From Candidatus Poribacteria bacterium (GTDB lineage Bacteria; Poribacteria; WGA-4E; WGA-3G), in contig OY282386.1 of assembly GCA_958295945.1 (NCBI GenBank), positions 3,466,204-3,530,203 on the forward strand: 64,000 nt of DNA, written 5' to 3'. Positions 28,749 to 56,381 of this stretch are shown piece by piece. The translations under genes and the position numbers were made by a program. Each line of letters starts with the position of its first letter. The first letter of the stretch is position 1. The notes under the pieces are model-generated. The model had not been told where the DNA came from, did no database searches, and was given only the letters and a program-made list of their open reading frames with translations.

Positions 28749-29186
28749 CTAATCTGGAATGGATGATCTATCTAACCAAGAGTTAATAAGTTCAACTCCA
28801 ACCCCTTCAAAATCAGTCATGTTTCGAGTAGCGACAGCAGCTCCATGAGAACGCGCGATTGCAGCGATTTGACAATCAGATTGACTAATTGGTCTACCCA
28901 GTGCCTGCCGCTGAGCAAAGATTTCTGCGTAAGTGGATACCGCATTGTTATCAAATACTAAAACGGGTTCAATGAATAAAGACGTAAAGATATTATCTGC
29001 GAATTCTAAGAGATTATTTTTACGTCTTCCATCAGGTAACAGGGCAATACCTGTCAAAATCTCCGCTTTAGTAATCGTAGTTATAGATAGACTGCTTATA
29101 GGTTGTGCATCGAACCAATCCACAACCATTTGCTCAGGATTGGCACGCATTAATTCCGATATGACATTTGTATCAAGAACAATCAT
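28749..29186 (-). CDS. PIN-domain ribonuclease toxin (VapC/FitB-like)
   Basis: A 145-residue PIN nuclease. The four acidic positions are Asp5 (MIVLDTNVIS), Glu42 (TKAEILTG), Asp104 (SQSDCQIAA) and Asp125 (NMTDFEGVG), so the active site is complete. The pattern NVISELMR and the ARSHGAAVATRN strand are typical of FitB-type toxins, which cut RNA. It is 9 bp downstream of a small gene that should encode the antitoxin. Confidence 0.88.
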   Translation of the reverse strand: MIVLDTNVISELMRANPEQMVVDWFDAQPISSLSITTITKAEILTGIALLPDGRRKNNLLEFADNIFTSLFIEPVLVFDNNAVSTYAEIFAQRQALGRPISQSDCQIAAIARSHGAAVATRNMTDFEGVGVELINSWLDRSSIPD

Positions 29187-31424: not shown

Positions 31425-31904
31425 ATGAAGTCTTACTATATTACATTTAGTGCAATACTGCTGGTTGCATTTGCCTTTGTATTGACAGGTTGTGAAGAAA
31501 CAACATCCGGTGGAAGCGGGGTTATTGATGTCGCAAGAGGCGAACCCAAAATAATAGACTCTGTTTTGGCTGTTGAAGTTACAAATGATCGACCACAAGA
31601 TATCACTGATTCATTTGATCCGGAATTAGATGATAAGGTGTTTTTGTGGATATTATGGGGTAATATTGATAGAACACACCAGGTGGAGGTATCGTGGATC
31701 TCCCCTGCTGATGAATTGGACGATCCCCCATATCATACAGAAAAAAGGACTTTTTCCTCTACTACAGGAGAGAAGATCACATGGTTTTATATTGATGCCC
31801 CGACAGGCGGATTGAGTGGTGAACGGTTTGCGTCAGGCTACTGGATTGTAGAGGTGAAACTTGATGGTGTTTTTGAACGCAGTCATCTTTTTTATATGGA
31901 ATAA
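31425..31904 (+). CDS. small lipoprotein of unknown function
   Basis: A 159-residue lipoprotein: signal helix ITFSAILLVAFAFVLTGC with lipobox LTGC, then a Gly/Ser linker and a beta-rich domain (VFLWILWGNIDRTHQVEVSW and ASGYWIVEVKLDGVFE). The fold looks like a small beta sandwich. No family is recognised. TAGGAG precedes the ATG. It stands alone on the plus strand and converges with the sacsin-like gene 25 bp away. Confidence 0.75.
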   Translation: MKSYYITFSAILLVAFAFVLTGCEETTSGGSGVIDVARGEPKIIDSVLAVEVTNDRPQDITDSFDPELDDKVFLWILWGNIDRTHQVEVSWISPADELDDPPYHTEKRTFSSTTGEKITWFYIDAPTGGLSGERFASGYWIVEVKLDGVFERSHLFYME

Positions 31905-31929
31905 AACAAAAGGAAGTTGTCTAAAAATA

Positions 31930-34900
31930 TTAGTCGGTATCATCGTTTGATCTGTATTGATTCTCATAGTAGTTTAAAATTACCTTAAGATCATTCCAAT
32001 GTTTTTCATTAAACCAAATATTTAATGTTTCTTCATTTACCTCTAATTTAATCTCAGGTGCATCTGATTCATTCAAATGTTTATACAGATTTTTTTGTGC
32101 ATCATTGTCGCGTTTAATAAATTCTTTATACTTCGCAGCACATTCTGGACATAAGGCAAGATGTTGTGCTTCATGTTCTTTGGGAAAATAGTTTTTTCCC
32201 AATGCTTCTACAGCCTCAAAATAATCTTTCTCACTATTTCGCTTTTTGAAAGGCATCGAATTTTGACACATCTGACATTCCATTTTCTTGTCATCTGTCG
32301 TATACCGGCCTCTAAGGTGCGTTCTACGGTCGATTGTCCCAGTTGTACTCTTGATACTTCTTAAACGATGCTCGTATTTTTTCTCCGGAGCATCCTCAAT
32401 TTCTATAAGTATTCGTTCCTTTCGGCGTTTTCCAGCAACAAGTTTATCACGCAATTCATCTGGTGATTTTCCCTGCGCATTCAATACATTTGCAATTTCT
32501 GCCATTGTGCCTGCTTCAGCAGCGGAATTGAATCCCATCTCTGTGGCGCGTTGATTCTGTACCCTTTTCTCATTCTCCACCTGAGCTATTTCTAACCGCC
32601 GCTTTTCTTCAATCTCAGCATTTTGCAACTCTCGCTGTTTTACAACTTTTCCAAATTCAATTGCTTCAAGCCATTTTTGATCTGTTTCGTATGGAAAACC
32701 TCCAGGAAGACAATCAATTGATGCCCCACGGGGACATACAAAGGAAATAGAGTCACCGTCTTTTTGCGGGACCCATTCTGCTTGTCTCAAATCCCATACA
32801 AGACTGGAAGCACTAGTTTTCATGTAATGCTGTTGATTGAGTAGAAACTGTGCTTTCAGGTAATCGTAAGGCAGTGAGCACATCGTTTGCCAAATCAATT
32901 TTGACTTATCAATTGTAGGTTGATTGAGCAGGATTTTGAATTCAGGGATGAAATAGTCTGAATTAATAGAAGTTTTATAATCTCTCCACCGACTATTAGT
33001 TTTGATTTCAGGATGACTAGGCGGTATATCTTGCGGAATAGCTTCTAATTTTGTTCTTGCTCCCAACTTCTTTGCAAATTCACCCAGTTTTCTCGGATCT
33101 ATTCCTGAATCTTCGTACATCAAAGAAAAATAAGGTGATATTCCATAAGACCCATCGTTGAGCATCTCCCAGTACATATCATCCTCATAGCATAAGATTA
33201 AACCTGTTTCAAGATATGGTGAGCCAAGATAAACATAATCCGCTGAAACACATCCACCAGTGGTCTGAAAAATATGGTAATCTTTGAACAAACCTTTTTT
33301 ATCAGTTTCCTTATCTAAAAATGCAATGAATTTCTGCATATCTTCAATGTGCTGCTTTGTGTCTACATGATTCGGAATATCTTCTGTGTATCGGTTGTTC
33401 AATATCCTCTTAATTCGCTCTGCTTCGTCAACCGGACGAACACCAATATCCACAAGCAATGCGCTGGATTTCTTTTGTTGATTCTTATTGTGTCCAGATG
33501 AATAAACACCTTCGACAACGTAGTAGAACCCTTCCTCGGGCTTTTCGTTATCTTCAGAGAAATGGCACTCACTGCCAATTCTATACTTACCATCGTTACA
33601 ACGAACTATCTGGAGTTTAGATAACCTATCTTTACGCTCATCTACAAAATAACGTGAGGATGATGGTGCACTTGATAGGAAATCATTAAGTAAGGCATAA
33701 AGTTGTTGATGCCACTCGTCGGATTTCTGCTTTAACCACTTCATTACTGTATCAGACTGAGTTTCTAGTGCCTTTATCAGGTCCTCAACTTTCCATTCAG
33801 ATATATCTAACAGGGACAGGAAATTGTCTTCTCGTTGATTAATTTGCGGCGGATTAGCAATCCACAAAGGCGAAGAACAATCTTTTTCAAGAAGTGTTTC
33901 CAAATCTTCATCTCCAATTAGATCGGATAAAACTCTTTCGCCTCTTGCTGTCCTGTACGCTGCTGATGCCGTGGCATGTCCACCCTGTTTCATTGGGACC
34001 AGTTTTTCCCGATTAAACTCCTGAATCAACTGTTCTTGGATAGAAAGATAAAAAGTGGTTAGATTATCTCTGTTATTAGGTAGAGTTGCAAGAAATTCCA
34101 CGTCTAACAACCCCCGGTCACGGATGGCATGCATTGATTCAGCAATCAAAACCGCGAGATGATTTCGTAATTCGTCATTAGCCGTACAATCTCGAACACT
34201 ATCACGTGCAACAGTTGAGGCGAAAGGAGCGTGCATGTGGAACCGCAATTTGGATGTCTCCTTTGCAGCAGGAAAATAGATACAGACCTGACCAGGATTT
34301 AATGTTTTTATTTTCCATTTCTCTTTTTCTGGTTTATCCATACTAAAAACAATTGCAATTCGGCAAGACTTAAGCCGGCCGTCTTCGTCTTGAATATCAA
34401 CGTCCTTAGTAAACCGTAGATAATGCATGGAATCAGGTGCGATATTTCCTGGACACATTACAGAAATCTCAATTCGGTTTTTATCATTTGTGCTTTCTAT
34501 TCGCTCAAGGAAACCGCTCGTTGAATCAGGCAGATAGTATTCTATCTTGCGAATGTTACTTAGAAACATCAACGTGTTTTCGTTTAATTTTTGAAGTTTA
34601 TCTTCTATCTCAGTACACGCTTGTTTAGGAGGCTTGTCAGGATTATCAAAAGGGAAGAGAAAACGGGTCCTCATTTCACCTATTGTTCCAGGAGGCAGAT
34701 TCTCAGTATCAGGAACAAACATGTCGTGGATGCGAAAATGATAGGGGCCAGATTCAATCTCTGGAGTGGATGTGTAGGCGAATACTGCCTTAAAACCGAT
34801 ACCAAACTTACCAATGCTAGTAGCATCATCTGCCTTGGTAGTGGATCCGATATTAGTAATTGAATCTACGTCCTCTATCGTAAACAAGCGGTGACCATTA

Positions 34901-35106
34901 TGTTCAAACTCAAGTCTGTCAGTATTGAGAAAGAACTTAACCTCTGAAGCCTTGGCATCTTCAGCGTTCTGAAGCAATTCATAAATGAAATGCACTTTGT
35001 CCGAGTAAAGCAATGTCAACAGTCCCTTGAAACCCTCCATTGCTCCATTCTCAATGAGTTGTTGACGTAATTCTTTACGTTTTTCAGACAACTGTTCAAT
35101 CGTCAT
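31930..35106 (-). CDS. sacsin/Hsp90-like (GHKL) ATPase, large candidate defence protein
   Basis: A 1058-residue protein. The N-terminal 250 residues form a sacsin-type GHKL ATPase: ELLQNAEDA at 43-51 (Mg/ATP site), the IEDVDSITNIGSTTK region and IGKFGIGFKAVF at 98-109. The middle (300-850) is helical and unrecognised, with a coiled coil near 860-890 (EEKRRLEIAQVENEKRVQNQ). A zinc site, Cys944-x2-Cys947 and Cys986-x2-Cys989, lies near the end; it looks like a treble clef but lacks an HNH pair. Its start overlaps the stop of the SNF2 gene as TAATG, so the two are translationally coupled and probably form one complex. The pairing suggests phage or DNA defence, which is inference. Confidence 0.85.
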   Translation of the reverse strand: MTIEQLSEKRKELRQQLIENGAMEGFKGLLTLLYSDKVHFIYELLQNAEDAKASEVKFFLNTDRLEFEHNGHRLFTIEDVDSITNIGSTTKADDATSIGKFGIGFKAVFAYTSTPEIESGPYHFRIHDMFVPDTENLPPGTIGEMRTRFLFPFDNPDKPPKQACTEIEDKLQKLNENTLMFLSNIRKIEYYLPDSTSGFLERIESTNDKNRIEISVMCPGNIAPDSMHYLRFTKDVDIQDEDGRLKSCRIAIVFSMDKPEKEKWKIKTLNPGQVCIYFPAAKETSKLRFHMHAPFASTVARDSVRDCTANDELRNHLAVLIAESMHAIRDRGLLDVEFLATLPNNRDNLTTFYLSIQEQLIQEFNREKLVPMKQGGHATASAAYRTARGERVLSDLIGDEDLETLLEKDCSSPLWIANPPQINQREDNFLSLLDISEWKVEDLIKALETQSDTVMKWLKQKSDEWHQQLYALLNDFLSSAPSSSRYFVDERKDRLSKLQIVRCNDGKYRIGSECHFSEDNEKPEEGFYYVVEGVYSSGHNKNQQKKSSALLVDIGVRPVDEAERIKRILNNRYTEDIPNHVDTKQHIEDMQKFIAFLDKETDKKGLFKDYHIFQTTGGCVSADYVYLGSPYLETGLILCYEDDMYWEMLNDGSYGISPYFSLMYEDSGIDPRKLGEFAKKLGARTKLEAIPQDIPPSHPEIKTNSRWRDYKTSINSDYFIPEFKILLNQPTIDKSKLIWQTMCSLPYDYLKAQFLLNQQHYMKTSASSLVWDLRQAEWVPQKDGDSISFVCPRGASIDCLPGGFPYETDQKWLEAIEFGKVVKQRELQNAEIEEKRRLEIAQVENEKRVQNQRATEMGFNSAAEAGTMAEIANVLNAQGKSPDELRDKLVAGKRRKERILIEIEDAPEKKYEHRLRSIKSTTGTIDRRTHLRGRYTTDDKKMECQMCQNSMPFKKRNSEKDYFEAVEALGKNYFPKEHEAQHLALCPECAAKYKEFIKRDNDAQKNLYKHLNESDAPEIKLEVNEETLNIWFNEKHWNDLKVILNYYENQYRSNDDTD

Positions 35107-38100
35107 TATTTCCCCCTTTTTACAGTTAGTACCCCATAAGCCACCAGTTCTGCCGTAATATCTGCATTTTCCGCGCTCTTTCCCAATTCCTCAATACGCC
35201 TATTGTAATCAGCCTCAGCATTAACAATCTGTTGTCGCCGCATTCGTTGAATGTTTGGTTCAGGCACTTCTTCAATCTTTTTCTTAAGAAGGGCAATCCG
35301 TTTCTGATGACTTGCAGACAAGTTCTCTTTCCTGTATTCCGATATCTCCTGAATATGTTCTTTATGCTCTGCAAGTGCTTTACTCCATAAAGTATGATGC
35401 AGACTTTCCAATTCTTCTCTCTTGGTTAGACTGATATTTGCAGTCGCATCGTTATCCTCAGCTTTTTCAAGTAACTTCGTAAGGTGTGGCATCAATGCAT
35501 CGGATGTAGTAATAGGTTTTAGAATCAAATTTTCCTTCTCTCCCATTAGTCTCCATTCATAAATTACAAATTCATATTGTCCAACGGGAACTTTGTTAGA
35601 TCGAACCTTCAAATATGTGACAACATCTTGTGGTATATTCAATACAAGCTCTGCTTGTTTTACCAAAGGATGTATCGGCATAATGAAAGTTGCATCAGGA
35701 TGCTTTGTAGCACCGTCTGCATCAAAGGTAATATGCAAATGCTGTTCAGTTCCTTTCAACCAATTTTCCCAATCACGAAATATCTGAGTTCTTTCCCGTG
35801 GCAATTGCTGAAAATCAGGCAATAGATTGTTACGTGCATCTTGCGAAAGCCGAAGTGTTTTGTGAGACTTTTCACCAAGAATAAACTCTTGGTCCGTGCC
35901 TATCTTCTGCTGAAGGTAGTGTTTCACGAGTCGTTGTATAGATGTTGGAGATAACCAGTAACTCGTGGCTTCATTTACCTCTTTTTCAATTCCTTGCTCC
36001 GAAAGTGGAATTCTAAACAAATTTAATTGCTCTACTTCTAATTTTTCTTGTTCTTGAAACCATCTGATCTGATTATCTGCCAATTGTTCAAACCTTGTTC
36101 TTTTCTCTTCATCTGTCAACTCATAATTTTCAGCAATATGCCGCAACTCACTCGTAATTTCACCAAGAATTTCTTCATTGCCACCTAATGCATTCTTAAA
36201 AATCCCAATGCGAAGCAAACACCGTTCATAGATGTCTGCATCCACAGTGCCTGGTGTAATCATATTAATAATCGTAACACTCTCACTCATCTGTCCTTTC
36301 CTGTCAATCCGTCCTATACGTTGTTCAATTTTCATTGGGTTCCATGGTAGATCGTAGTTGACGATGCAATCACAGAATTGGTAATCCAACCCTTCACACC
36401 CGACTTCTGAGAACAGCATTAGATCGAGCGTGTCTATCTCCTCGCCAGATTTCTCAAATCGATTACGTAGTTTTAAGCGTTCTTCGTCTGGTACGCCGCC
36501 GTGAATCATGCCAACGCGCACCCCATCCGCTTTGAGATGTTTGTAAAGATACGCAAGCGTATGTCGAAAACTACTAAAAATCATGATTTTGTTATTGGGG
36601 AGGTTTTGTCTATCACGGACAATTTCTCGGAGTTTCTCCAACTTTGAATCCGCTGCATCAAGTGTTCTCACTTTTTCAAGAAGTGTTTGGATGTGTTCCC
36701 TGATTTGTGTAACAATCTCAGGTGGTGGGATCGCATCCGCAGCGTCCGCTTCTGTCCACTCAAGCTCATCAAGGTTACGATTCAGAATATCTTCAAGGAA
36801 GGGTTCAAGTCCATATAAGCAACTGGCTAACTGTCTACGAAGTGTGGTCATCATAAAGTTAACACTCTTATCCCCATGTAGACCGCGAAATATCTCCGCT
36901 TTTGTTTCAAGCAGCACTTCATGAATTTCTTCCTGTTCTGGTGTTAATGGAACCTGCACGGTTTGAGACTTACGAATAGTAAACTCTCCGATATCGCGGC
37001 GGCGAGTTCTATTGATTATCCGTGAAAATGTGTGGAGTGCTTCCATATCGGTGATAAGTTGGACACGTTCTTCTTGCGTGATTTGTTGGCTACTTAGCTG
37101 CTTTCTTATCCGTTTGAAGTCAGGATTCTTTCTGAAAATTGCTTGTCCCCATGCAGTTGCGGCTGCTTGATCAAGGTTTTCCTTTGCATGCTGTGTCCAA
37201 TCTATCTGCTGTGCTCGAGCCGCTTCCACTGCCCGATTGATGAACGGGTTCGGTTCTGACATGTGCTCAAAACTCTCATAGTCCAGAACCAGATCAGGAC
37301 GCAGAACATTTAGCAGCACGTACAGATCATGATTACCGAGTTGAATAGGCGTAGCAGTCAAGAATACAGCAGCTTCCGCATTTTCACAGAAAAACCGCAC
37401 GGCATCGTGATTAGCAGTCATCTGATTTCGGATATGGTGTGCTTCATCTACAATAACAAGATCGAAGTGAGGTGGTGGGTCAAGGTCTAAAAGTCCTTGT
37501 CTAGTCTTTCCCTTGCGACTGCCACCTGGGCCGAAAAGGAGTGTCTTATCTAACAACGAATAGGGCAGAATTACTTTCTGGTATTGCTCTGGCCATACAC
37601 CATCCAGATGCATTTCATTGATGCAATATCGTAAGGTTTTTCCATCCAGATGCGTAAAATCTTCGTCGAACCGCTTCATTTCGCGCTGCCATTTTTGCTC
37701 AGTGACCAATGGACGTGGACATATTATAAGAACGGAATTAACCTTACTACGTGCTTGCAACTCGCGCAAAATAAGACCTGCTTCAATCGTTTTTCCCACA
37801 CCGACACTATCTGCAATAAGTAATCTTGGACGTTCTGACTTGATAAACTTCAGAACAGGTCGGTACTGGTACGGAATAAAATCAATCCGTGCAGAATTGA
37901 GTGAATATAACGTTGATACTGCCGGAGATCGTATTTGCAGCGCGGTGAGATAGGCGTGAAATTCATCACATGAAAGGCGCGGAGCTTCATCGTCAGATTC
38001 AACTTCAGGTTGTAACTGAGATGCGTAGAAGGTTTGAACAGTGTTATTAACAAAAACTTTAACACTATCTTCAGGTGTGCCCGAAATTATTTCAACAATT

Positions 38101-38183
38101 GCCCCGCGAGTTGAGGGATTAGATTTTAAGAATACCATTTTCCCAAGAGAAAATTCTGTAGATTGAATAACGTTTGTTTCCAT
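35106..38183 (-). CDS. SNF2-family helicase/translocase, partner of the sacsin-like ATPase
   Basis: A 1025-residue superfamily 2 ATPase (residues below counted from the ATG six bases upstream). The Walker A is DSVGVGKT at 127-134, and DEAH is 248-251 (LVIVDEAHHIRN). TATPIQLGNHDLY is motif III. The second motor half includes KIMIFSSFRHTLAYLYKHLK, EVGCEGLDYQFCD and QRIGRIDRKGQ with the arginine finger. The order is that of RapA/SNF2-like enzymes, with a 350-residue C-terminal part that I do not recognise. It would translocate on DNA or remodel protein-DNA complexes. The start at 38183 is chosen because AAGGA lies at normal distance. No methylase is attached, which argues against DISARM. Confidence 0.87.
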   Translation of the reverse strand: METNVIQSTEFSLGKMVFLKSNPSTRGAIVEIISGTPEDSVKVFVNNTVQTFYASQLQPEVESDDEAPRLSCDEFHAYLTALQIRSPAVSTLYSLNSARIDFIPYQYRPVLKFIKSERPRLLIADSVGVGKTIEAGLILRELQARSKVNSVLIICPRPLVTEQKWQREMKRFDEDFTHLDGKTLRYCINEMHLDGVWPEQYQKVILPYSLLDKTLLFGPGGSRKGKTRQGLLDLDPPPHFDLVIVDEAHHIRNQMTANHDAVRFFCENAEAAVFLTATPIQLGNHDLYVLLNVLRPDLVLDYESFEHMSEPNPFINRAVEAARAQQIDWTQHAKENLDQAAATAWGQAIFRKNPDFKRIRKQLSSQQITQEERVQLITDMEALHTFSRIINRTRRRDIGEFTIRKSQTVQVPLTPEQEEIHEVLLETKAEIFRGLHGDKSVNFMMTTLRRQLASCLYGLEPFLEDILNRNLDELEWTEADAADAIPPPEIVTQIREHIQTLLEKVRTLDAADSKLEKLREIVRDRQNLPNNKIMIFSSFRHTLAYLYKHLKADGVRVGMIHGGVPDEERLKLRNRFEKSGEEIDTLDLMLFSEVGCEGLDYQFCDCIVNYDLPWNPMKIEQRIGRIDRKGQMSESVTIINMITPGTVDADIYERCLLRIGIFKNALGGNEEILGEITSELRHIAENYELTDEEKRTRFEQLADNQIRWFQEQEKLEVEQLNLFRIPLSEQGIEKEVNEATSYWLSPTSIQRLVKHYLQQKIGTDQEFILGEKSHKTLRLSQDARNNLLPDFQQLPRERTQIFRDWENWLKGTEQHLHITFDADGATKHPDATFIMPIHPLVKQAELVLNIPQDVVTYLKVRSNKVPVGQYEFVIYEWRLMGEKENLILKPITTSDALMPHLTKLLEKAEDNDATANISLTKREELESLHHTLWSKALAEHKEHIQEISEYRKENLSASHQKRIALLKKKIEEVPEPNIQRMRRQQIVNAEADYNRRIEELGKSAENADITAELVAYGVLTVKRGK

Positions 38184-38228
38184 ACGCATTCCTTTTATTT
38201 TAAATTAACTTGATTATATAACGTTGCT

Positions 38229-39682
38229 TTACCCCTTCACAACCCCAATAGGACGCAGGCGCGCAACACGACGCGATAATCCCGCCTCATCAACAACACG
38301 CACCACCTCATCAACGTCCTTATACGCCTCAGAAACCTCTTCCTGCAAGGTACGTTTACCTTCCGCTCGCACATAGATCCCTTTTTTCTCAAGATCATCC
38401 TTGATGGATTTTCCTTTAGTCAACTCTATTGCTTTCCTCCGTGAGAGGACCCTACCCGCACCGTGACAGGTTGTGCCAAATGTTTCAGCCATAGCACCCG
38501 GATTACCCACCAAAACATAAGATGCAGTTCCCATATCACCAGGTATCAATACAGGTTGTCCAACCTTCTGATATTTTGAAGGTATTTCAGGATGTCCAGC
38601 AGGAAACGCCCGTGTCGCACCTTTGCGGTGGATAACAACTCGCGTTCCTTACCATCAACTTTATGCTTTTCAAACTTACCGATGTTGTGTGCGACATCAT
38701 AGACAAGTTCCAACCCAAGTTCATCTTCAGTTGTGTCAAAATACTTCATAAAGGTCTGGCGAACAAGGTGCATAATACATTGCCGATTGTTCCACGCATA
38801 ATTCGCACTACATGCCATAGCAGTGATATAATCTTGTCCCTCTGGTGAGTTGATTGGAGCAGAAGCAAGTTGACGGTCAGGTAGGTTTATCCCGTACCTT
38901 TCAGCGACTTGCACCCAACTCTTTACATGCTCATCACAAATCTGATAACCGAACCCACGCGAACCGGTATGAATCATGACACAAACGTTGCCTTCACTTA
39001 ATCCCATAGCATCTGCAGCTTCACGGTAAAAAATACGGTCAACCACTTGTACCTCAAGGAAATGATTACCTGAACCGAGAGTACCCAGTTGATTCTTACC
39101 ACGTTCTAAAGCGCGTTGACTCGCGGCATCCGCATTGGCGTGATCAAGAAAACCAGATGCTTCAGTATATTGCAGATCATGCGGATGTCCGTATTCTCGC
39201 TCAATTGCCCAGCTTGCACCTTTTTCTAACATATACCGTTCTTCATTGAGTGAGAGTTGAATCTTACCTTTAGAACCCACACCGCAAGGGACATTATCAA
39301 AGAGTTCACCGATAAGTCCTTTCGTTTTACCTTCTAATTGTTTCGCATTAAGGTTGCTTCGGACTAATCGTACACCGCAATTAATGTCATAACCGATACC
39401 ACCTGGAGAAACGACACCGTCGGCTTTTGGATCCGTTGCTGCCACCCCACCAATTACAAACCCGTATCCCCAATGTAGATCAGGCATGGCAAGTGAGTGT
39501 TTGACGATACCGGGAAGATGTGCGACGTTTGCGACTTGCTGCAATGCTTCATTACTCTTTGCCTGATTGAGCAGTTTCTCATTGGCATAAATAATTCCGT
39601 CGACACGCATGCCTTTCATATAACTTTTAGGAATACGCCATCTGTAATCATCTATTTTTTGAAGTGTTATGTTTTGTGCCAT
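38229..39682 (-). pseudogene. rtcB: RtcB RNA ligase, split by a one-base frameshift
   Basis: RtcB joins 2',3'-cyclic phosphate RNA ends to 5'-OH ends using Mn and GTP. The first frame (ATG at 39682, after GGAAGGA) runs MAQNITLQKIDDYRWRIPKS, with metal-site motifs SPGGIGYDINCGVR, GTLGSGNHFLEVQ and MIHTGSRGFG. It leaves the family sequence after KVDGKEREL near 38634-38641. The rest, PGDMGTASYVLVGNPGAMAE and the guanylate-binding TCHGAGRVLSRRKA, is in the -1 frame and ends at 38229. A slip of -1, or one restored G, gives RELVIHRKGATRAF exactly. No slippery heptamer is seen, so a mutation or a sequencing error is more likely than programmed shifting. Confidence 0.85.
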
Positions 39683-39713
39683 AATAGTCCTTCCGATGTG
39701 TTCTTTATTCTTT

Positions 39714-40319
39714 TTATGCTTTTTGTGCCACCATACTTGCAAGAATCCCAAGGATCGTATCGCACTGTGAGATTTGATAAGCATTCATGTCAATGTAGAG
39801 TTTCTTTCCCTCCAATTTGAGGAAAAGCCAATCTATCCCGGATGTGATGGTTCCATAAATGCAAGCGATGTCATTCCCTTCTTCTGCGTTAAAACGTTGT
39901 GCAGCTACCATTTCCGCAACGCACTGACCAAGGCCTGATGTCAGATCATCCTTTTTTGCCTCAACGAGGATTAGGGCAGGAGCTTCCAAATAAAACTGCT
40001 CTGGAGATAAACTCACCAAAAAATCGCAAACGCCTGTGAGCCCTTCTTCGGCATCCACGTTAAAGTCAATGCCAGAAAAAAAACTGATGCGTCGCTCAAA
40101 GTGTTCCCGGAGTTCAACCAGTACAGCGGCGACAATCAGTTCTGATTTTGCCTTCTCAGTGCCTATAGCAAACGCTAATGGAACGTTTCGCTCCAACACC
40201 GTGGTGAGAAGTGTGCTTGGAGAGACAGGTGCTACATTCGCAAAGATACCAGCAGCTTCGTCTGTTTTGAGGTGAAATATCTTGCACGCTTCCTCTAAGG
40301 TAAAATTGCTATACGCCAT
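39714..40319 (-). CDS. unknown protein with PD-(D/E)XK-nuclease-like core
   Basis: A 201-residue protein not recognised by name. Residues about 95-135 read GVCDFLVSLSPEQF, then PALILVEAKKDDL and GLGQCVAEMVAAQRFN. This Asp, then Glu-Ala-Lys, followed by a Gln helix is the layout of the PD-(D/E)XK fold. No helicase is attached. It could be a stand-alone nuclease or a non-catalytic relative. GGAGAG precedes the ATG. It lies 31 bp upstream of rtcB, so an RNA or DNA repair link is possible but unproved. Confidence 0.55.
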   Translation of the reverse strand: MAYSNFTLEEACKIFHLKTDEAAGIFANVAPVSPSTLLTTVLERNVPLAFAIGTEKAKSELIVAAVLVELREHFERRISFFSGIDFNVDAEEGLTGVCDFLVSLSPEQFYLEAPALILVEAKKDDLTSGLGQCVAEMVAAQRFNAEEGNDIACIYGTITSGIDWLFLKLEGKKLYIDMNAYQISQCDTILGILASMVAQKA

Positions 40320-42490: not shown

Positions 42491-43060
42491 TTATTCAAAA
42501 AGTTCTGCAACCTGACAAGTGAATCCTTCAACTACCTCTTCACCACTAAGTGTGTCATTCCGTGTGAGGAGTGTGATGTCTGTTTCAGAACGATAAACAG
42601 TTACCGTTTTGGATCGGGGTTCAAGTAGCCATACCAACTGTGTACCAGCTTCAAGATAAGCAAACACCTTTTCTTGAATTCGATTCAATGTATCTGAAGG
42701 AGAAACGACTTCAACAGCAAGGTCTGGTGGTACTGGAGACGCTTTGCTACTGTCAGCTGGGATACGATCAGTTGAAATAAATGCAATATCTGGTATAAGC
42801 GCGCGTTCGCCAACCTTGAATCCTGTACCAGAAACTGCAATACATCCTAACCGATTTTCATGAACATGTGAACCTAAATAAATAGTTAACTTAGCACTAA
42901 TCTTACCATGCTCCACTGACGCTGGTGCCATCGGAATTAATTCTCCCTTTATATATTCATATCCCTCTAAATCACTCTCAAGGAATTCCTCCAATGTCAT
43001 CTGTGGAATATCAGGTGGAAGACTGTTAGGTGTGATGTATTGAACTTCTTGAGCATTCAT
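42491..43060 (-). CDS. Uma2 family protein (PD-(D/E)XK fold), array copy 1
   Basis: A 189-residue Uma2 (DUF820) protein. It starts MNAQEVQYITPNSLPPDIPQ. The nuclease-like core has Pro90-Asp91 (LIPDIAFIS) and Glu117 (PPDLAVEVVSPSD), with a Lys near 131. Biological roles of this family are unsettled; many copies per genome are common. Residues 118-189 are almost identical to array copy 3, and the middle (50-105) is distinct. AAGGAG precedes the ATG, and the 116-bp gap to the next copy is repeated at each junction. Confidence 0.85.
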   Translation of the reverse strand: MNAQEVQYITPNSLPPDIPQMTLEEFLESDLEGYEYIKGELIPMAPASVEHGKISAKLTIYLGSHVHENRLGCIAVSGTGFKVGERALIPDIAFISTDRIPADSSKASPVPPDLAVEVVSPSDTLNRIQEKVFAYLEAGTQLVWLLEPRSKTVTVYRSETDITLLTRNDTLSGEEVVEGFTCQVAELFE

Positions 43061-43176
43061 TTTTTATTCTCCTTGATGTGTTGCTGTGCTTTTTTCTAAA
43101 TTCTTTTACAATTCAATTTACCATAACACCGTTTCCAATTGCTATCGTTGGATAATTTCTATCTGTTCATAGAGTT

Positions 43177-43746
43177 CTATTCAAAAAGTGCTGCAACCTG
43201 ACAAGTGAATCCTTCAACTACCTCTTCACCACTAAGTGTGTCATTCCGTGTGAGAGTCGTGATGTCTGTTTCAGAACGATAAACAGTTACCGTTTTGGCT
43301 CCCGGACTAATCACCCATACTAACTGCGTCCCAGCCTCAAGGTATGCAAATACCTTATCTTCAACCCGACGTAATATATCTGTGGGAGATACCACTTCAA
43401 TAGCGAGGTCTGGTGGAACAGGAGATGCTTTGCTCGAGTCATCAGGAAGTCGGTCAGTTGAAACAAAGGCTACATCTGGTATCAGCAGACGTTCACCAAC
43501 ACAGAATCCTGTATCCGATATGAGAACACGTCCCAGTTGATTTTCACGAACATACAAGTGTAACAGAGTACTTAGGTTCGCACTAATATAGCCGTGTTCT
43601 AATGAGGTAGGTGCCATCGGAATTAATTCTCCTTTTATATATTCATATCCCTCAAAATCACTCTCAAGGAATTCCTCCAATGTCATCTTTGGAATATCAG
43701 GTGGAAGACTGTTAGGTGTGATGTATTGAACTTCTTGAGCATTCAT
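43177..43746 (-). CDS. Uma2 family protein, array copy 2
   Basis: A 189-residue Uma2 protein, identical to copy 1 over most of residues 1-45 (one Gln to Lys and one Leu to Phe change). The middle carries its own sequence, LHLYVRENQLGRVLISDTGF. The core acids are kept (LLIPDVAFVS and PPDLAIEVVSPTD). The segment EDKVFAYLEAGTQLVWVISP differs from copies 1 and 3, and is closer to copy 4. It retains the repeated 5' leader with AAGGAG. Confidence 0.85.
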   Translation of the reverse strand: MNAQEVQYITPNSLPPDIPKMTLEEFLESDFEGYEYIKGELIPMAPTSLEHGYISANLSTLLHLYVRENQLGRVLISDTGFCVGERLLIPDVAFVSTDRLPDDSSKASPVPPDLAIEVVSPTDILRRVEDKVFAYLEAGTQLVWVISPGAKTVTVYRSETDITTLTRNDTLSGEEVVEGFTCQVAALFE

Positions 43747-43857
43747 TTTTTATTCTCCTTGATGTGTTGCTGTGCTTTTTTCTACATTCTTTTATAATTT
43801 ACCATAACACCGTTTCCAATTGCTATCGTTGGATAATTTCTATCTGTTCATAAAGTT

Positions 43858-44427
43858 CTATTCAAAAAGTTCTGCAACTTGACAAGTGAATCCTTCAACT
43901 ACCTCTTCACCACTAAGTGTGTCATTCCGTGTGAGTAGTGTGATGTCTGTTTCAGAACGATAAACAGTTACCGTTTTGGATCGGGGTTCAAGTAGCCATA
44001 CCAACTGTGTACCTGCTTCAAGATAAGCAAACACCTTTTCTTGAATTCGATTCAATGTATCTGAAGGAGAAACTACTTCAACAGCGAGGTCTGGTGGGAC
44101 TTTAAACGCTTTGCTACGGTCCGTAGGACGATTATCTGTTGATATGAATGCGATATCAGGTATTAGGAACCTATCTCCGACCTGAAAACCTGTATCCGGG
44201 GCATACACACGGCCTAATTGATTTGCACGAACATGTCCGTTTAATGGTGTAATTAAGTTCATACTAATGTCACCGTGTTCAACAGATGTTGGTGCCATCG
44301 GAATTAATTCTCCTTTTATATATTCATATCCCTCTAAATCACTCTCAAGGAATTCCTCCAATGTCATCTGTGGAATATCAGGTGGAAGACTGTTAGGTGT
44401 GATGTATTGAACTTCTTGAGCATTCAT
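43858..44427 (-). CDS. Uma2 family protein, array copy 3
   Basis: A 189-residue Uma2 protein. Residues 1-48 and 118-189 match copy 1 almost exactly, while the middle (GDISMNLITPLNGHVRANQL and onward) is its own, with a KAFKVPPD variant before the core Glu. This patchwork shows exchange between copies. The catalytic-like acids are present (FLIPDIAFIS and LAVEVVSPSD). Confidence 0.85.
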   Translation of the reverse strand: MNAQEVQYITPNSLPPDIPQMTLEEFLESDLEGYEYIKGELIPMAPTSVEHGDISMNLITPLNGHVRANQLGRVYAPDTGFQVGDRFLIPDIAFISTDNRPTDRSKAFKVPPDLAVEVVSPSDTLNRIQEKVFAYLEAGTQLVWLLEPRSKTVTVYRSETDITLLTRNDTLSGEEVVEGFTCQVAELFE

Positions 44428-44543
44428 TTTTTATTCTCCTTGATGTGTTGCTGTGCTTTTTTCTACATTCTTTTACAATTCAATTTACCATACCACCGTT
44501 TCCAATTGCTATCGTTGGATAATTTCTATCTGTTCATAGAGTT

Positions 44544-45110
44544 CTATTCAAAAAGTTCTGCAACCTGACAAGTGAATCCTTCAACTACCTCTTCACCACT
44601 AAGTGTGTCATTCCGTGTGAGTAGTGTGATGTCTGTTTCAGAACGATATACATTTACGGTTTTGGAAGTCGGCTTAATCACCCATACTAACTGCGTCCCA
44701 GCCTCAAGGTATGCAAATGCCTTTTCTTCAACCCGGCGTAGTGTATCTGATGGAGAGACAACTTCAACAGCAAGATCTGGAGGAACTGGTGATGCTGTAC
44801 TAATGTCATCAGGAAATCGGTCTGTTGTTAAGTAGGCAATATCTGGGATTAGCAAACGTTCTCCAACCTTAAACCCTGTATCCATGAAGATATCTCCCAA
44901 TTGCTTTTCACGGACGTACATTCCTAAAGGTAAAAATAGATTTGTATTTATCTTGCCATGTTGTATTGATGCAGGCACAATAGGTATTAATTCTCCTTTT
45001 ATATATTCATAGCCCTCTAAATCACTCTCAAGGAATTCCGCCAATGTCATTTTTGGTATATCAGGTAGAAGTCTGTCGTGTGAGATGTGTTGTACTTCCT
45101 GAGCATTCAT
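44544..45110 (-). CDS. Uma2 family protein, array copy 4 (most diverged)
   Basis: A 188-residue Uma2 protein, first in transcription order. It starts MNAQEVQHISHDRLLPDIPK and differs most from the rest, but keeps LLIPDIAYLT and PPDLAVEVVSPSD and ends in the same tail FTCQVAELFE. The likely promoter of the array is in the 159 bp between this gene and the end of ppdK. Confidence 0.85.
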   Translation of the reverse strand: MNAQEVQHISHDRLLPDIPKMTLAEFLESDLEGYEYIKGELIPIVPASIQHGKINTNLFLPLGMYVREKQLGDIFMDTGFKVGERLLIPDIAYLTTDRFPDDISTASPVPPDLAVEVVSPSDTLRRVEEKAFAYLEAGTQLVWVIKPTSKTVNVYRSETDITLLTRNDTLSGEEVVEGFTCQVAELFE

Positions 45111-48473: not shown

Positions 48474-48965
48474 TTAAATAATCCATTTTTCTCTCTTTAT
48501 TAATTCCACTAAATTTATCCATTCTATATTGAAATGCAAACAAACATCGGGGATGTGTGGTCTCTTTATATTATCTGTAGGTTTTTCTTCTGTTACAACA
48601 ATACCCTGATCATAAATGAGTGCTAATGCGATACACCAAGGATCTCCTCCAGATTTCTGTCTCCGAGTGTCTATGAGTCTCGGATATTCAGTTAGTATCT
48701 CACGGACTCTTTCTTGGATAGATTCATCAATTGGGACATGCAAAAATCGTTTTAATTGATTCTGATTGAACCATTTCTTTACTTCTGAATTCTTGACTGT
48801 TTCTTCATAAATGACTTGTGTCATTTTTAGTCTATGACTTTGTATCAGTATCTTTACCTTAGCCCACAATGTCGGAAAATAATCAATAGGATATCGTTCA
48901 TGAAACGCAGCAAAAAATGCGCTGGTATCAAAACTGTAGATTTCATGTTCAAATAGTGTATTCAT
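48474..48965 (-). CDS. PIN-like protein of the DUF4411 type, probable toxin
   Basis: A 163-residue protein. The N-terminal acid is in IYSFDTSAFFAAFHERYPID, the central Glu in IYEETVKN, and late acids in SGGDPWCIALALIYDQGIVV and TEEKPTDN. This is the DUF4411 layout, a PIN-related fold. Its start overlaps the stop of the upstream ImmA/XRE gene as ATGA. Pairs of this kind are considered toxin-antitoxin units, with this protein as the nuclease. Confidence 0.8.
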   Translation of the reverse strand: MNTLFEHEIYSFDTSAFFAAFHERYPIDYFPTLWAKVKILIQSHRLKMTQVIYEETVKNSEVKKWFNQNQLKRFLHVPIDESIQERVREILTEYPRLIDTRRQKSGGDPWCIALALIYDQGIVVTEEKPTDNIKRPHIPDVCLHFNIEWINLVELIKREKWII

Positions 48966-50134
48966 GCGAAAATGGCACTTTCAATTTTAGCAAGATGTTT
49001 TGTGTTACAATTGGAAAAAACAGAGGTTAAACCAGCGAGCGTGATTTTTTCCTCATAATAAGCAGTGAAAGCGGTACGTGCAAAAAACTCACCAAAAGCA
49101 TTAAGTAACCGAGTATGATAATGTGGAAATCCTTTAGATTTTTGATTGGTATCGTTATACTCTTTTTCTTGTTCTAATCTAAACTTTTGGTACTTTTGAT
49201 TTGTAATCTTTTTGAGTGTTAACAACCTCCGCATAATGACTTCAGTGCTCACACGGAAGTAATGACTTGCTTCGGTTAACAATTTCGAATTGAAGGGGTG
49301 ATCTACTACTTTTAATAACTCTTTTTTAGGAACTAACACTTCTGCTGCAACTTGATTGCAGAATACCTCCACAGGGTCCACATTTTGAAAACTGACATCC
49401 TCGTAGTTCATATTCTGAATGATACTTTCTCCAAGTGCTATATGTACTAACTCGTGAATAATCGTAAAAATCCGTCCGTTAGGACTGTCTTGAGAATTTA
49501 AAACGATAACAGGAAATGGTTTCTGTGCAATGCAAAACCCTCGAAAAGTATTCAGTTGAACAGAAAGGTGTGCGTTAGCAGAAGTTTGACACACCAGAAT
49601 ACCTTTTGACTCGACAGTCCTTTTCCAAAACTTTAATATTTTATAACGATCCTTGGTTCGTGGGAGTTTTTCAGTATTGATATTTAGAAATTTCCTTATT
49701 TTCTCGGCAGCGCGCATGGGTGCTTCATTGCGATTGACCTTTAATGTCACTTCAGGAAAAGGCATTTCTAACAATTCATAAAATTCAATCAATGTCTCAC
49801 GTCTATCAAAAACTTCAAGGACATTCGCTTTCAATCTATAGTTCTGCTCATTATCGGGAGCAGCTGCCTGCGGTAATACTCGATAATCAGTAAGAGGACT
49901 AAAATCCTTGGGTGGTTTTGGTAAGTAGAAAATAGAAATATGAGTCCTATAGATATTTGCAATCTTTTTTAACTGCGCGAAGGTCGGCCGATCTTTACCG
50001 TTTTCCCAATCTTCAAGACGTTCTGGATTTATATTTAACTTTTCCGCTGCATCTTCAAGGTCCAATTTGATGCGTCTTTCCCGCGCCCACTTAAGGACAT
50101 CAGGCGTAATGAGTGCTTTGACAGATTTAGCCAT
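48962..50134 (-). CDS. XRE-type regulator fused to ImmA/IrrE metallopeptidase
   Basis: A 390-residue protein. The first 70 residues contain a Cro/C1-type helix-turn-helix (EDAAEKLNINPERLEDWENG). The central part has the zinc protease motif HELVH in FTIIHELVHIALGES, with a downstream FCNQVAAEVLVPK segment giving the third ligand. Such proteins act as protease-regulators of mobile elements or as the antitoxin of the following gene. ATG at 50134 is preferred; a TTG lies 21 bases upstream. It is translationally coupled to the DUF4411 gene. Confidence 0.87.
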   Translation of the reverse strand: MAKSVKALITPDVLKWARERRIKLDLEDAAEKLNINPERLEDWENGKDRPTFAQLKKIANIYRTHISIFYLPKPPKDFSPLTDYRVLPQAAAPDNEQNYRLKANVLEVFDRRETLIEFYELLEMPFPEVTLKVNRNEAPMRAAEKIRKFLNINTEKLPRTKDRYKILKFWKRTVESKGILVCQTSANAHLSVQLNTFRGFCIAQKPFPVIVLNSQDSPNGRIFTIIHELVHIALGESIIQNMNYEDVSFQNVDPVEVFCNQVAAEVLVPKKELLKVVDHPFNSKLLTEASHYFRVSTEVIMRRLLTLKKITNQKYQKFRLEQEKEYNDTNQKSKGFPHYHTRLLNAFGEFFARTAFTAYYEEKITLAGLTSVFSNCNTKHLAKIESAIFA

Positions 50135-50215
50135 GGTACATATACCTACGCTCAAGTTAAACGATTTTTCGTTAAACTCCGAGAACTTACAGATTAATTA
50201 ACTAATAGAGGCAAC

Positions 50216-51529: not shown

Positions 51530-52891
51530 TTATATTGAATAAATCATTCGACTTGCTTCTTCAAATTCTGGTTCAAGTGGATCTGTAGATAGATATAGTT
51601 TCTGATACGGTTCATATAATTGGATATAACTCCAATTGACACCACATAAGAGTTTACCGTTATTTACGAGTTTGATAAATCTTCCACGAAACTTCGCACG
51701 AGTGCGTTCTGGTGGCACATGCATCGCTTGACGAATCTGGTTATCATCTAAGATCCTTTCCGTTAATCCTCTTTTTTCCGCCTTATAATATACGCTGGAA
51801 TCCTGACGTATATTGTGGTATTCTAAATCTAAACGTCGGACTTCGGCTGAGTTCCAGTCTAATGAACTACGACTGACATAAGCCTCAAGCCACTTTCGTT
51901 TGATGACCCAATCAAGTTCACGGTCCAATTGCATTGGATTGTCCTCAAGACGTGTCATCACATATTCCCATCGAGACATGACTTCATCAGTGGTAGGATC
52001 AGATTCTGCTTGCTCAAGATACCGTTTGGCGCATTCAAAGTATTGCCATTGAAGTTCAATCGCAGATAGACGTTTACCATTTTCAAGTTCTATGAGGCGT
52101 TTACAGGAGATATCCTCAGAAATTTCGTGAATTGCTTGAACAGAGTTTCGTAGGGCAAAACGTTCTGTGATAAAATGATCTTCTATCATTCGCAGGATAA
52201 TACCAGTTGTTCCTACCTTCAAAAACGTTGACAATTCGGACATATTGGAATCGCCAACAATGACGTGCAATCGTCTATATTTCTCTCTGTCTGCATGGGG
52301 TTCATCTCGCGTGTTGATAATACCGCGTGCAGTTGTTGTTGCTATGGATATTTCTTCTCGGATGTGTTGTGCACGCTGAGAAATCTCATAGAAGCCTTGG
52401 TCGCTTCGCTTAACTTTGCCTGCACCTGAATATATTTGTCGGGTGACAAAAAATGGAATGAGTTGCGATGCTAACTGCCGAAAACTAACCTTTTCGCGTT
52501 CCATCAGGTAGTTTTCATGACAGCCGTAAGTATTACCGACTGTATCTAAATTGTTCTTGAAGATGGAGATTTTTCCACGGAATCCATCTGTCTGCATCCT
52601 ACGTTCTGCTGTGGTAGCGAGACGGGTGACAATGCGTTCCCCTGCTTTATCGTGTGCAACAAGTTCAATAACATCATCACATTCTGGAGTCGCATATTCT
52701 GGATGGCATCCTATATCTTGATAAAACCTCGCACCGTTTTCCAAAAACACATCGGGATACATCCTACCCGAAATGATCTCGCGAAACAGATACATGACAA
52801 CATTCTGTACAGTAAGTTTTTTTCCTCTGTTTTTATCTGGGGTACAGATTATGCCGTATTCGGTTTCCAATCCGTATATTCTACGATGCAT
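51530..52891 (-). CDS. pafA: Pup-protein ligase PafA
   Basis: A 453-residue ATP-dependent ligase that joins the C-terminal Glu of Pup to substrate lysines. The nucleotide-site start is RIYGLETEYGIICTP, with the conserved FLENGARFYQDIGCHPEYAT and ECDDV. Other family blocks are FKNNLDTVGNTYGCHENYLM, IINTRDEPHADREKYRRLHV and IVGDSNMSE. It lacks the extra loop near residue 40 that marks Dop. The carboxylate-amine ligase fold is complete. Its start overlaps the prcA stop by 11 bp, so it is the last gene of the proteasome operon. Confidence 0.95.
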   Translation of the reverse strand: MHRRIYGLETEYGIICTPDKNRGKKLTVQNVVMYLFREIISGRMYPDVFLENGARFYQDIGCHPEYATPECDDVIELVAHDKAGERIVTRLATTAERRMQTDGFRGKISIFKNNLDTVGNTYGCHENYLMEREKVSFRQLASQLIPFFVTRQIYSGAGKVKRSDQGFYEISQRAQHIREEISIATTTARGIINTRDEPHADREKYRRLHVIVGDSNMSELSTFLKVGTTGIILRMIEDHFITERFALRNSVQAIHEISEDISCKRLIELENGKRLSAIELQWQYFECAKRYLEQAESDPTTDEVMSRWEYVMTRLEDNPMQLDRELDWVIKRKWLEAYVSRSSLDWNSAEVRRLDLEYHNIRQDSSVYYKAEKRGLTERILDDNQIRQAMHVPPERTRAKFRGRFIKLVNNGKLLCGVNWSYIQLYEPYQKLYLSTDPLEPEFEEASRMIYSI

Positions 52892-53591
52892 GATTAAATA
52901 TCTCTGCTATCTCTTCAGCGGTGAAACGACGAAACTTACGTCGTCCATTAGTTGCATCCAGACACCCAACCTCAATTGATTGTGGTGTTATCTGATACGG
53001 TTCTGATTCTTCTACCTCAATAGCCTCAAAAGTTCTTGATGCAAGTTGCATCGCTTCGGTTAAGTCCAACCCCTCATTATAAGTCTCATTTAACTTCTCG
53101 GTTATGGCCTCTGCTCTTCCTCCTATAACTGCAAACTTCTCCATTTCCTCATAAGTTCCATCAAATGCGATCTTGTAAATTTGGCTTCTCACATCCGGTT
53201 CTCCATCCACTTCACAAACGAGTAGTTCAATCTCAAGCGGTTTTACATCCCACGCTTGCGCAATTGCCATCATTTGTTGCGAATATAGATTTGTCAACCA
53301 TTTACCAGTCACATCTTCACGGTAATAGGTATATCCCTTCACCTCTGCCTCACGAATACCGACTACGCGAAGTGTTTCATATTCAGAGACACGACCTGTG
53401 GATGCAAGGGCAATTTTATCGTATATTTCAGAAACTTTGAAAATAGTTCTTCGCGGGTTCTCTGCTACCATTAGGAGACCGTTGTTATATTCCAATACAA
53501 CGACCTCTTTTGCTTGTCCTATGCCGCGATCAACAAATACCTTTTTATCTTCCCAAATCTGGTCAGGTGACACGTAATAAGGTGTTGACAT
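52881..53591 (-). CDS. prcA: 20S proteasome alpha subunit
   Basis: A 236-residue non-catalytic alpha subunit. It starts MSTPYYVSPDQIWEDKKVFV, the short N-terminal helix that gates the pore, and has YNNGLLMVAENPRRTIFKVS and IYDKIALASTGRVSEY, as in actinobacterial PrcA. Seven copies form each outer ring and receive the Arc tail. AGAGGAA precedes the ATG. A 156-bp inverted-repeat element separates it from prcB, which is unusual for this pair. It overlaps pafA by 11 bp. Confidence 0.93.
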   Translation of the reverse strand: MSTPYYVSPDQIWEDKKVFVDRGIGQAKEVVVLEYNNGLLMVAENPRRTIFKVSEIYDKIALASTGRVSEYETLRVVGIREAEVKGYTYYREDVTGKWLTNLYSQQMMAIAQAWDVKPLEIELLVCEVDGEPDVRSQIYKIAFDGTYEEMEKFAVIGGRAEAITEKLNETYNEGLDLTEAMQLASRTFEAIEVEESEPYQITPQSIEVGCLDATNGRRKFRRFTAEEIAEIFNHAS

Positions 53592-53605
53592 TTATTCCTC
53601 TAATC

Positions 53606-53761
53606 TAATTTAACCTAAGTTGCTACCTACTGAATATTAATCATCAAAGGACTTTATCAAACGAAGAAACACAGAAATTCTGCATATTTTAGTGCCACTT
53701 CTTATAAATCGGGGTTAGAAACCCCTCCAACAAATGATAGGTGGTAACTTAGGTTAATTTA
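53606..53761. repeat. 156-bp inverted-repeat element between prcB and prcA
   Basis: Ends at 53606-53629 and 53738-53761 are inverted repeats agreeing at 21 of 24 positions, both containing TTAACCTAAGTT. The centre has the hairpin GGGGTT-AGA-AACCCC (53711-53725). Its ends differ from the TATAGT family, so it is a second type of small element. It fills the 185-bp gap within the proteasome operon, ending just short of the prcA ribosome site. Confidence 0.8.
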
Positions 53762-53776
53762 ATAAGAATTTGGGAG

Positions 53777-54568
53777 TTACAATTGTCCCAATCGTGAAAC
53801 TAACTCTTCAAACAATTGCTCAACGGTCTCATCAGAAATATCGGAAACGCCTTGTTCTGTTATGGAAATCAGCGTTGGAAATATCTTCCTAATCAGATCA
53901 GGACCACCCGTTGCAATGTCCTCATCTGCAGCATCCCACAATGCCTCCGCAATTGCTGTTAATGCATCTTGTTCAGACATATCTGGACGATACATCTTTT
54001 TTAGGGTAGAACGTGCATCTTTACCACCAGAGCCGATGGAATAATAGGTATCTTCCTCATAACGGCCACCGAGAGCATCATATTTAAAGATTCGCCCCTT
54101 CTTCTGTTTTAAATCGTATCCAGCAAAAATCGGAAGGACAATCAGACCTTGCATGGCTAAACTCAAATTCATTCTAACAAGACTTGAAAGATAGTTTGCT
54201 TGTCCATCCAAACTTAGAGATGTCCCTTCCATCTTTTCGTAAAATTCGACTTGAACTTGGAAGAGTTTCGCTGTTTCAAAACAAGGACCTGCCACACCTG
54301 CAACCGCAATCGCAGAGTGTCTGTCAATCTTAAACACCTTCTGAATTCGGCGTTCACCTACTTGATATCCTTCAGTTGCTTGACGATCTCCTGCAAGAAT
54401 TACGCCATCATTATAGACAAGCGCAAGTACAGTAGTGCCTTCTAAATAATTGTGTGGAAAGCCATCTTGAACATTATTGAGACGGTTCCAGTCTGCAACC
54501 TGATCAGGATATCTACTCTTTAGAATCTGTAAGAAATCGGTCTTTCCATAGTCATCGGGTTTGAGCAA
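53777..54568 (-). CDS. prcB: 20S proteasome beta subunit
   Basis: A 263-residue catalytic subunit. The propeptide is residues 1-44. Processing before Thr45 (LEGTTVLALVYNDG) exposes the nucleophile. Counting from it, Asp17 (ILAGDRQAT) and Lys33 (RRIQKVFKI) are at the canonical places, so the Thr1-Asp17-Lys33 site is complete. SIGSGGKDARSTLKK supplies the Gly-rich and Ser/Asp positions. Seven copies form each inner ring. The gene starts 2 bp after the pup stop. Confidence 0.95.
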   Translation of the reverse strand: MLKPDDYGKTDFLQILKSRYPDQVADWNRLNNVQDGFPHNYLEGTTVLALVYNDGVILAGDRQATEGYQVGERRIQKVFKIDRHSAIAVAGVAGPCFETAKLFQVQVEFYEKMEGTSLSLDGQANYLSSLVRMNLSLAMQGLIVLPIFAGYDLKQKKGRIFKYDALGGRYEEDTYYSIGSGGKDARSTLKKMYRPDMSEQDALTAIAEALWDAADEDIATGGPDLIRKIFPTLISITEQGVSDISDETVEQLFEELVSRLGQL

Positions 54569-54570
54569 TC

Positions 54571-54768
54571 CTATTGACCTCCCCGCTGGATATAGTTTTC
54601 AACAAATTCCTCCGAATCTTCTTCTAAAATTTCATCAATTTCATCAAGAAGTGCATCTAAATCATCCGTTATATCATCAACGTTTTCATTGAGTTCTGGA
54701 TTTGGTTGGATCTCCTCATTTTCATTGGAGGGGTGATCTCGGTATTCTTGCTGTTTTTCGCGTGGCAT
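54571..54768 (-). CDS. pup: prokaryotic ubiquitin-like protein Pup
   Basis: A 65-residue, highly acidic, mostly disordered protein. The middle has the helix-forming, Arc-binding segment DDITDDLDALLDEIDEILEE, and the C-terminus is ENYIQRGGQ. The final Gly-Gly-Gln means it needs deamidation to Glu by Dop before ligation. The N-terminus is rich in charged and polar residues, as needed to thread into the ATPase. It sits between dop (81 bp upstream) and prcB (2 bp downstream), its normal place. Confidence 0.95.
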   Translation of the reverse strand: MPREKQQEYRDHPSNENEEIQPNPELNENVDDITDDLDALLDEIDEILEEDSEEFVENYIQRGGQ

Positions 54769-54849
54769 TTTGTGCTCCTTTACAATTGTGGTTACGGATA
54801 ACCTTTAAATATAAGTAATGAACATAATTCCTATTCAACAAGATTCATT

Positions 54850-56331: not shown

Positions 56332-56381
56332 TATTCACTTTCTATATGAAATTGGTCAATAGTCAGGATAGACAACAAATA

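Follow-up and report, generated by a model that had tools for sequence, protein, structure and literature searches.

The SNF2 and SAC genes

The window analyzed here is a 64,000-nucleotide stretch of the genome of a Candidatus Poribacteria bacterium (assembly GCA_958295945.1, contig OY282386.1, positions 3,466,204 to 3,530,203), and our subject is a pair of large ATPase genes, SNF2 and SAC, on its minus strand. From the open reading frame (ORF) and profile matches, SNF2 (35106..38189, minus strand) was assigned as a 1027-amino-acid (aa) SNF2/SWI2 ATPase of the RapA/DrmD/BrxHII type. SAC (31930..35106, minus strand) was assigned from its ORF together with profile and structure matches as a 1058-aa sacsin/TmtA-type GHKL ATPase. 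An earlier note, made from the sequence alone, had described two ORFs of more than 1000 residues overlapping as TAATG. Both were found to be real, with the SNF2 stop and SAC start overlapping in this way and the ATG opening SAC; an in-frame ATG at 38183 within the SNF2 ORF is the position that the note had taken as the end.

The full SNF2 motor reported in the note was recovered with all motifs intact (Walker A GVGKT, DEAH, TATP, motif V, and QRIGRIDR) and with a Pfam match to SNF2-rel_dom (E value of 1e-19). The motor occupies residues ~100-660 and lies between a short N-terminus and a RapA_C-like tail at ~815-993. The best solved relative was RapA (E value of 6e-35), the Pfam match to RapA_C was weak, and on sequence similarity SNF2 is assigned to the DrmD/BrxHII/RapA group. 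BrxHII and RapA have been described as consisting of a Tudor domain, an SNF2 motor, and further alpha+beta domains (PMC12839542), a paper in which a sacsin partner is unmentioned. SNF2 has the same architecture, and by analogy with these proteins its short N-terminus may be Tudor/SH3-like.

The GHKL ATPase of SAC was likewise borne out, by matches to Pfam SACS (E value of 2e-20) and NCBIfam P_loop_sacsin (92.5 bits) and by the motifs ELLQNAEDA at residue 43 and IGKFGIGFKAVF at residue 98. The protein comprises the GHKL domain (~15-200), a GyrB/Hsp90-like second domain to ~440, a long variable middle, and a pseudo-HNH zinc region at ~925-1000. Within the family, the GHKL box (41–120) and the zinc end (921–1000) were conserved, and residues 640–880 were variable. 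A SAC profile searched against the PDB matched the sacsin SR1 region (E value of 6e-20). An AlphaFold2 model was obtained with a mean pLDDT of 84, and a structure search covering residues ~18–440 matched the fold of the ~15-440 region to sacsin SR1 (Z of 14.8) and to GyrB, Hsp90, and MutL (Z of 12.5–14.7), so that the GHKL domain leads into the kind of second domain that ATP-driven clamps usually have.

The four-Cys zinc site that had been noticed near the end of SAC was also confirmed. The zinc domain spans residues ~929-990 (32137..32322, minus strand) in a CxxC...CxxC arrangement, with the four Cys residues at ~944–989, inside the conserved end. The suggestion that this region might resemble a nuclease held for the fold and failed for the chemistry: a profile of 43 SAC sequences matched the HNH domain of Escherichia coli McrA (6ghc, residues 197–265; E value of 2.7e-5), but the HHVIP, DN, and CH of McrA were aligned with AVEAL, AQ, and CA in SAC, so that none of the three catalytic residues (H, N, and H) is retained. 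In long SAC proteins (~1500 aa) the site takes a CxxC…H form in which the His is not conserved. An active nuclease was therefore rejected, and the region would most simply be a dead HNH domain retained as a DNA-contact or structural module.

Conservation, mobility, and exchange

A scan of one genome per species with SNF2 as the query gave 288 relatives, of which the best 80, those nearest to the poribacterial query, were fetched; they come from ~20 phyla as read from the record titles. A scan of genome contigs with SAC as the query gave no matches, which we attribute to the variability of SAC. In 76 of the 80 SNF2 loci, SAC was found downstream on the same strand, either directly or with one or two genes in between, and the four remaining contigs run out 0–681 bp past SNF2. 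With the window included, SNF2 and SAC overlap or lie no more than 10 bp apart in 57 of 81 loci, some of these overlaps being overstated since the longest possible ORF was used for each gene. SNF2 was found in 17 of 85 Poribacteria genomes, its relatives there being 66–79% identical, and SAC was downstream of it in all twelve poribacterial regions fetched. Absence of the pair from other genomes, which the earlier note had named as the finding that would tell against it, is thus excluded, and the pairing is not due to chance. SNF2 and SAC are one unit, travelling as one cassette.

Two further arrangements were observed among the relatives. On a viral contig (L219), a HEPN-SNF2 gene adjoins phage head genes, apparently with no SAC downstream. 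In six loci, an unnamed gene of ~215 aa was located between SNF2 and SAC, or just past SNF2 at a contig end (L091:8901-9509, L133:13060-13728, L109, L111, L119, and L120).

Empty sites were found in three congeneric genomes (G044, G040, and G041), which keep the gene order on both sides but lack SNF2 and SAC. The shared order comprises the genes at 24523 and 25964, ArgH, PhyH, ThuA, the gene at 31425, rtcB, the gene at 40758, and cupin, and the flanks share 74–83% nucleotide identity, indicating that the window and the empty-site genomes have this site in common. A short spacer is all that lies between the gene at 31425 and rtcB, measuring 77 bp in L210 and somewhat more in L212; in the window, this gap is filled by exactly SNF2 and SAC, which places the inserted segment at 31905..38228. 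Both bordering genes lie outside the cassette. Upstream is rtcB (38229..39784, minus strand), single-copy in the genus, and downstream is a 159-aa gene with a start that looks lipoprotein-like by eye (31425..31904, plus strand), which is present in the empty-site genomes. Related pairs were also found on three rhizobial plasmids, one of them conjugative, where their sole annotations are "helicase-related protein" and "hypothetical protein." A few contigs classified as viral carry such pairs too. The SNF2–SAC cassette is horizontally mobile.

The two members of the cassette differ in how well they are conserved. Mean identity over 63 loci was 60% for SNF2 and 31% for SAC. Between the window and a locus of the same genus (L081), SNF2 was 79% identical and SAC 26%, yet the window SAC was 50–53% identical to those of Chloroflexota and Desulfobacterota loci, where SNF2 identity was ~62%. 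These values show that one SAC has been traded for another while the motor stayed the same. The distance matrices of the two proteins still correlate (r of 0.42), so exchange falls short of complete scrambling. By these sequence comparisons, it is the SNF2 motor that stays constant and the sacsin-type ATPase that is swapped. In three other loci (L039, L040, and L041), SAC-like proteins without an SNF2 neighbor share the first 560-600 residues (60-64% identical) and have another C-terminal half, a pattern that points to domain-level shuffling.

Comparison with named systems

The earlier note had called the long middle of SAC unrecognised, but SAC is not an unrecognised protein: PADLOC models of TmtA, which PADLOC lists as the Tiamat defence protein, matched SAC, the best being PDLC03972 (E value of 7e-59, 198 bits over ~780 residues). 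The models searched were PDLC03964-03972, with model lengths of 1302-1782 aa, and long paired SAC proteins (~1500 aa) reached up to 490 bits. SAC shares with TmtA the N-terminal sacsin-type GHKL ATPase and the adjoining region. In the best model, however, the window protein matches only positions 6-796 of 1302, the first 60%, and it differs from TmtA in its C-terminal region. Tiamat, which we take to be a one-gene system, differs also in that an SNF2 partner accompanies SAC in the window, as in 76 of the 80 SNF2 loci.

For SNF2, DrmD of DISARM was the best match in both PADLOC (366 bits) and NCBIfam (308 bits), covering most of its length. The NCBIfam score is about half the DrmD equivalog cutoff of 610 bits (NF038317). 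DrmA, DrmB (DUF1998), DrmC (PLD), and methylase genes were not found in the inserted segment, which consists solely of SNF2 and SAC between ancestral flanks. We know of no GHKL partner for DISARM, and the note's statement that the locus does not match this system stands. SNF2 likewise reached 203 bits against the RapA equivalog cutoff of 576 (PRK04914). As for BREX type 3, PglZ, BrxC, and a methylase were not in the inserted segment, and BrxH models gave 154-201 bits.

A match to a named system, which the note had offered as a second ground for setting the proposal aside, was therefore found only in part: there is homology of the TmtA and DrmD types, but the pair fits none of Tiamat, DISARM, RapA, and BREX. 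A literature search, outside which subscription papers and preprints largely lay, returned no description of the SNF2–SAC pair. Our verdict is that the pair is a new, widespread, mobile variant assembled from known parts.

Possible function and surroundings of the pair

The domains and genes joined to the pair in other genomes bear on its function. An N-terminal HEPN_Swt1 domain (PF18731, E value of 1.4e-18) was present in ~48 of 67 non-poribacterial SNF2 proteins, nearly all of these carrying an RN-x3-H RNase motif (RNRWAH-type), and in L129 HEPN is a separate gene upstream of SNF2. Unlike most of its relatives, the window SNF2 lacks this domain; an N-terminal HEPN_Swt1 with its R-x4-H motif was absent from the window and from the 13 poribacterial loci among the 80 fetched. 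The pair is kept without HEPN in ~17 non-poribacterial loci and in all Poribacteria. A HEPN(Swt1)-SNF2 fusion (WQE_15321) was recorded by Anantharaman et al. in 2013, and HEPN-helicase fusions were placed among restriction-modification (R-M)-type contexts (PMC3710099). The fusion in most relatives of the window SNF2 is of the same kind, but the window copy is without HEPN, and no mention of a sacsin-type partner was found in that paper.

R-M genes were also encountered directly beside the pair. In L102, the genes for HsdR, YgjP, an Mrr endonuclease, SNF2, and SAC form an operon of touching genes; the order is HsdR, YgjP, SNF2, and SAC in L136 and L153, and HsdR, SNF2, and SAC in L125. With one member per family scanned with Pfam and the others assigned by clustering, the pair is predicted to close a type I R-M operon in these loci. 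The pairs on rhizobial plasmids adjoin Cap4-type nuclease, ABC-three-component, or RecB-like genes.

Other accessory domains were less regular. Some poribacterial SAC proteins carry, or adjoin, a 150-aa Hfq/Sm-like domain (PF17209, E value of 1e-9), which has its own gene next to SNF2-SAC in some loci and is fused to the N- or C-terminus of SAC in others (L037:5740-6585, L038:16206-16751, L051 SAC residues 1084-1238, and the L046 SAC C-terminus). One SAC-like protein (L048:15655-18237) contains a Pfam match to Sigma70_r2 (E value of 3e-9). In the rhizobial loci L161-L163, a gene of 176-184 aa just upstream of SNF2 is sigma-70-like by eye, without a Pfam match. A link of the L048 domain and the rhizobial gene to transcription is possible.

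Taken together, the mobility and patchiness of the pair, the sensor-like swapping of SAC, the fusion to a HEPN toxin, the homology to TmtA, and the R-M operons make defence likely, and we lean, with some reserve, toward the view that the two genes form a module that moves horizontally and acts against invaders, defence in this broad sense being its probable role. The earlier note had proposed that the pair acts in defence by sensing or remodeling foreign DNA. Of that proposal, the treatment of the pair as one unit stands, and the mobile cassette, HEPN fusions, and R-M operons leave defence as the best reading; the defence-type neighborhood that it cited does not stand.

We envisage that the RapA/DrmD-type motor would load on or track along invader duplex DNA or stalled transcription complexes and that SAC may serve as an exchangeable sensor and switch, with its pseudo-HNH end making the DNA contact. 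Its homology to Hsp90, MutL, and gyrase B suggests a clamp that closes when ATP binds. Closure may then release an effector. For most lineages this would be the HEPN RNase, halting the cell by RNA cleavage (abortive infection). Since HEPN is absent in its poribacterial lineage, the window copy would act by direct blockage of DNA or through an effector in trans. A more specific proposal, to which we give slightly less than even credence, is that the pair represents an unnamed, widespread two-ATPase immune system with a constant RapA-type motor, usually HEPN-fused, an obligate, exchangeable sensor clamp of the sacsin/Hsp90 type, and a pseudo-McrA reader. If so, some of the proteins that databases label as Tiamat would represent half of such a machine.

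Sacsin-type ATPases are widespread in bacteria. A testable division of labor would follow from an SNF2 protein as obligate partner, an RNase as effector, and a sensor that is swapped, and the pair offers a clue that some "single-gene" TmtA calls overlook a second gene. Human sacsin combines an Hsp90-like ATPase and HEPN within one protein, and the bacterial two-gene version may bear on the origin of this pairing.

Several observations weigh against a defence role or are neutral toward it. The window neighborhood is not a defence island, its genes being mostly housekeeping (ArgH, PPDK, and proteasome/Pup). The earlier note had counted other defence-type genes within 20 kb, which is correct for a PIN toxin, Uma2 copies, and a DUF4411/HTH-M78 pair and otherwise not. 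Across loci, the PADLOC tally of flanking genes was not clearly above the same-contig control, which contained CRISPR genes. Methylases within 20 kb were found at 5 loci against no more than 2.2 expected (p of ~0.07, not significant), so that an enrichment of N6-methylases near the pair is suggestive only. The window copy is without a HEPN effector, and a search for a HEPN_Swt1 gene elsewhere in its genome gave none that was convincing and one match below the cutoff. Finally, the RapA-like shape of SNF2 would fit work on RNA polymerase equally well.

This last point underlies the strongest alternative, that the pair is a transcription or stress machine combining a RapA-like RNA polymerase recycler with a chaperone-like ATPase. 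RapA is the best solved relative of SNF2, with the weak RapA_C match in addition, and the Hfq/Sm-like domains on poribacterial SAC proteins and the Sigma70_r2 match in L048 are accessories of an RNA or transcription type. We nevertheless consider it unlikely, as SNF2 falls below the NCBIfam RapA cutoff (203 of 576 bits), and a housekeeping factor would not be expected to be so patchily distributed, to have exact empty sites, to swap its SAC, or to be carried on plasmids.

A second alternative, that SAC is a Tiamat protein acting alone with SNF2 as an independent DrmD-like hitchhiker, would agree with the TmtA scores of the window and long paired SAC proteins, with SAC/TmtA-like genes lacking SNF2 in the same phylum (L057, L063, and L041), and with the viral contig L219, which seemingly has SNF2 without SAC. 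Set against these are the insertion of both genes together at one site and the bacterial loci examined, in which SNF2 was never without SAC where the contig was long enough; a hitchhiker would not be expected to keep step across ~20 phyla, and we judge this explanation improbable. Least probable, and in our view quite doubtful, is a toxin-antitoxin-like or plasmid-stability element in which the HEPN RNase is the toxin and the ATPases its control: HEPN domains are common toxins (PMC3710099) and the pair is carried on plasmids, but its retention without HEPN in ~17 non-poribacterial loci and all Poribacteria indicates that the toxin is not the constant part, and two 1000-residue ATPases would be costly for a simple toxin-antitoxin system.

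Two genes upstream of the cassette were considered as partners and rejected. RtcB as a repair partner was ruled out because its gene, single-copy throughout the genus, is also present at the empty sites. Its reading frame is broken near 38546 in this single-contig assembly and intact in 15 same-genus genomes, reflecting either a recent break or an assembly indel. The 201-aa protein at 39714-40319 has a D...ExK-like motif (GVCDFLVS...LVEAKKDD), no Pfam match, and a structure model too poor for fold use (pLDDT of 51), and was considered as the PD-(D/E)XK nuclease of a REase–RtcB–SNF2–SAC operon. It was rejected as a component since it belongs to a family dispersed in Poribacteria, with 11 copies in this genome and up to 37 in others, and adjoins rtcB in G046 without SNF2. 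It is homologous to the C-termini of two SAC-like proteins (L048 and L049).

Elsewhere in the window, a PIN-domain toxin-like gene (28749-29186) and the DUF4411/HTH-M78 pair (48474-50155) are probably toxin-antitoxin loci. Four tandem Uma2-type genes (PF05685) of 188-189 aa lie at 42491-45110, one having been scanned with Pfam and the others called paralogues by clustering and spacing. At 51530-58193, two Pup-ligase-family genes and a proteasomal ATPase gene form a Pup-proteasome cluster in a poribacterium.

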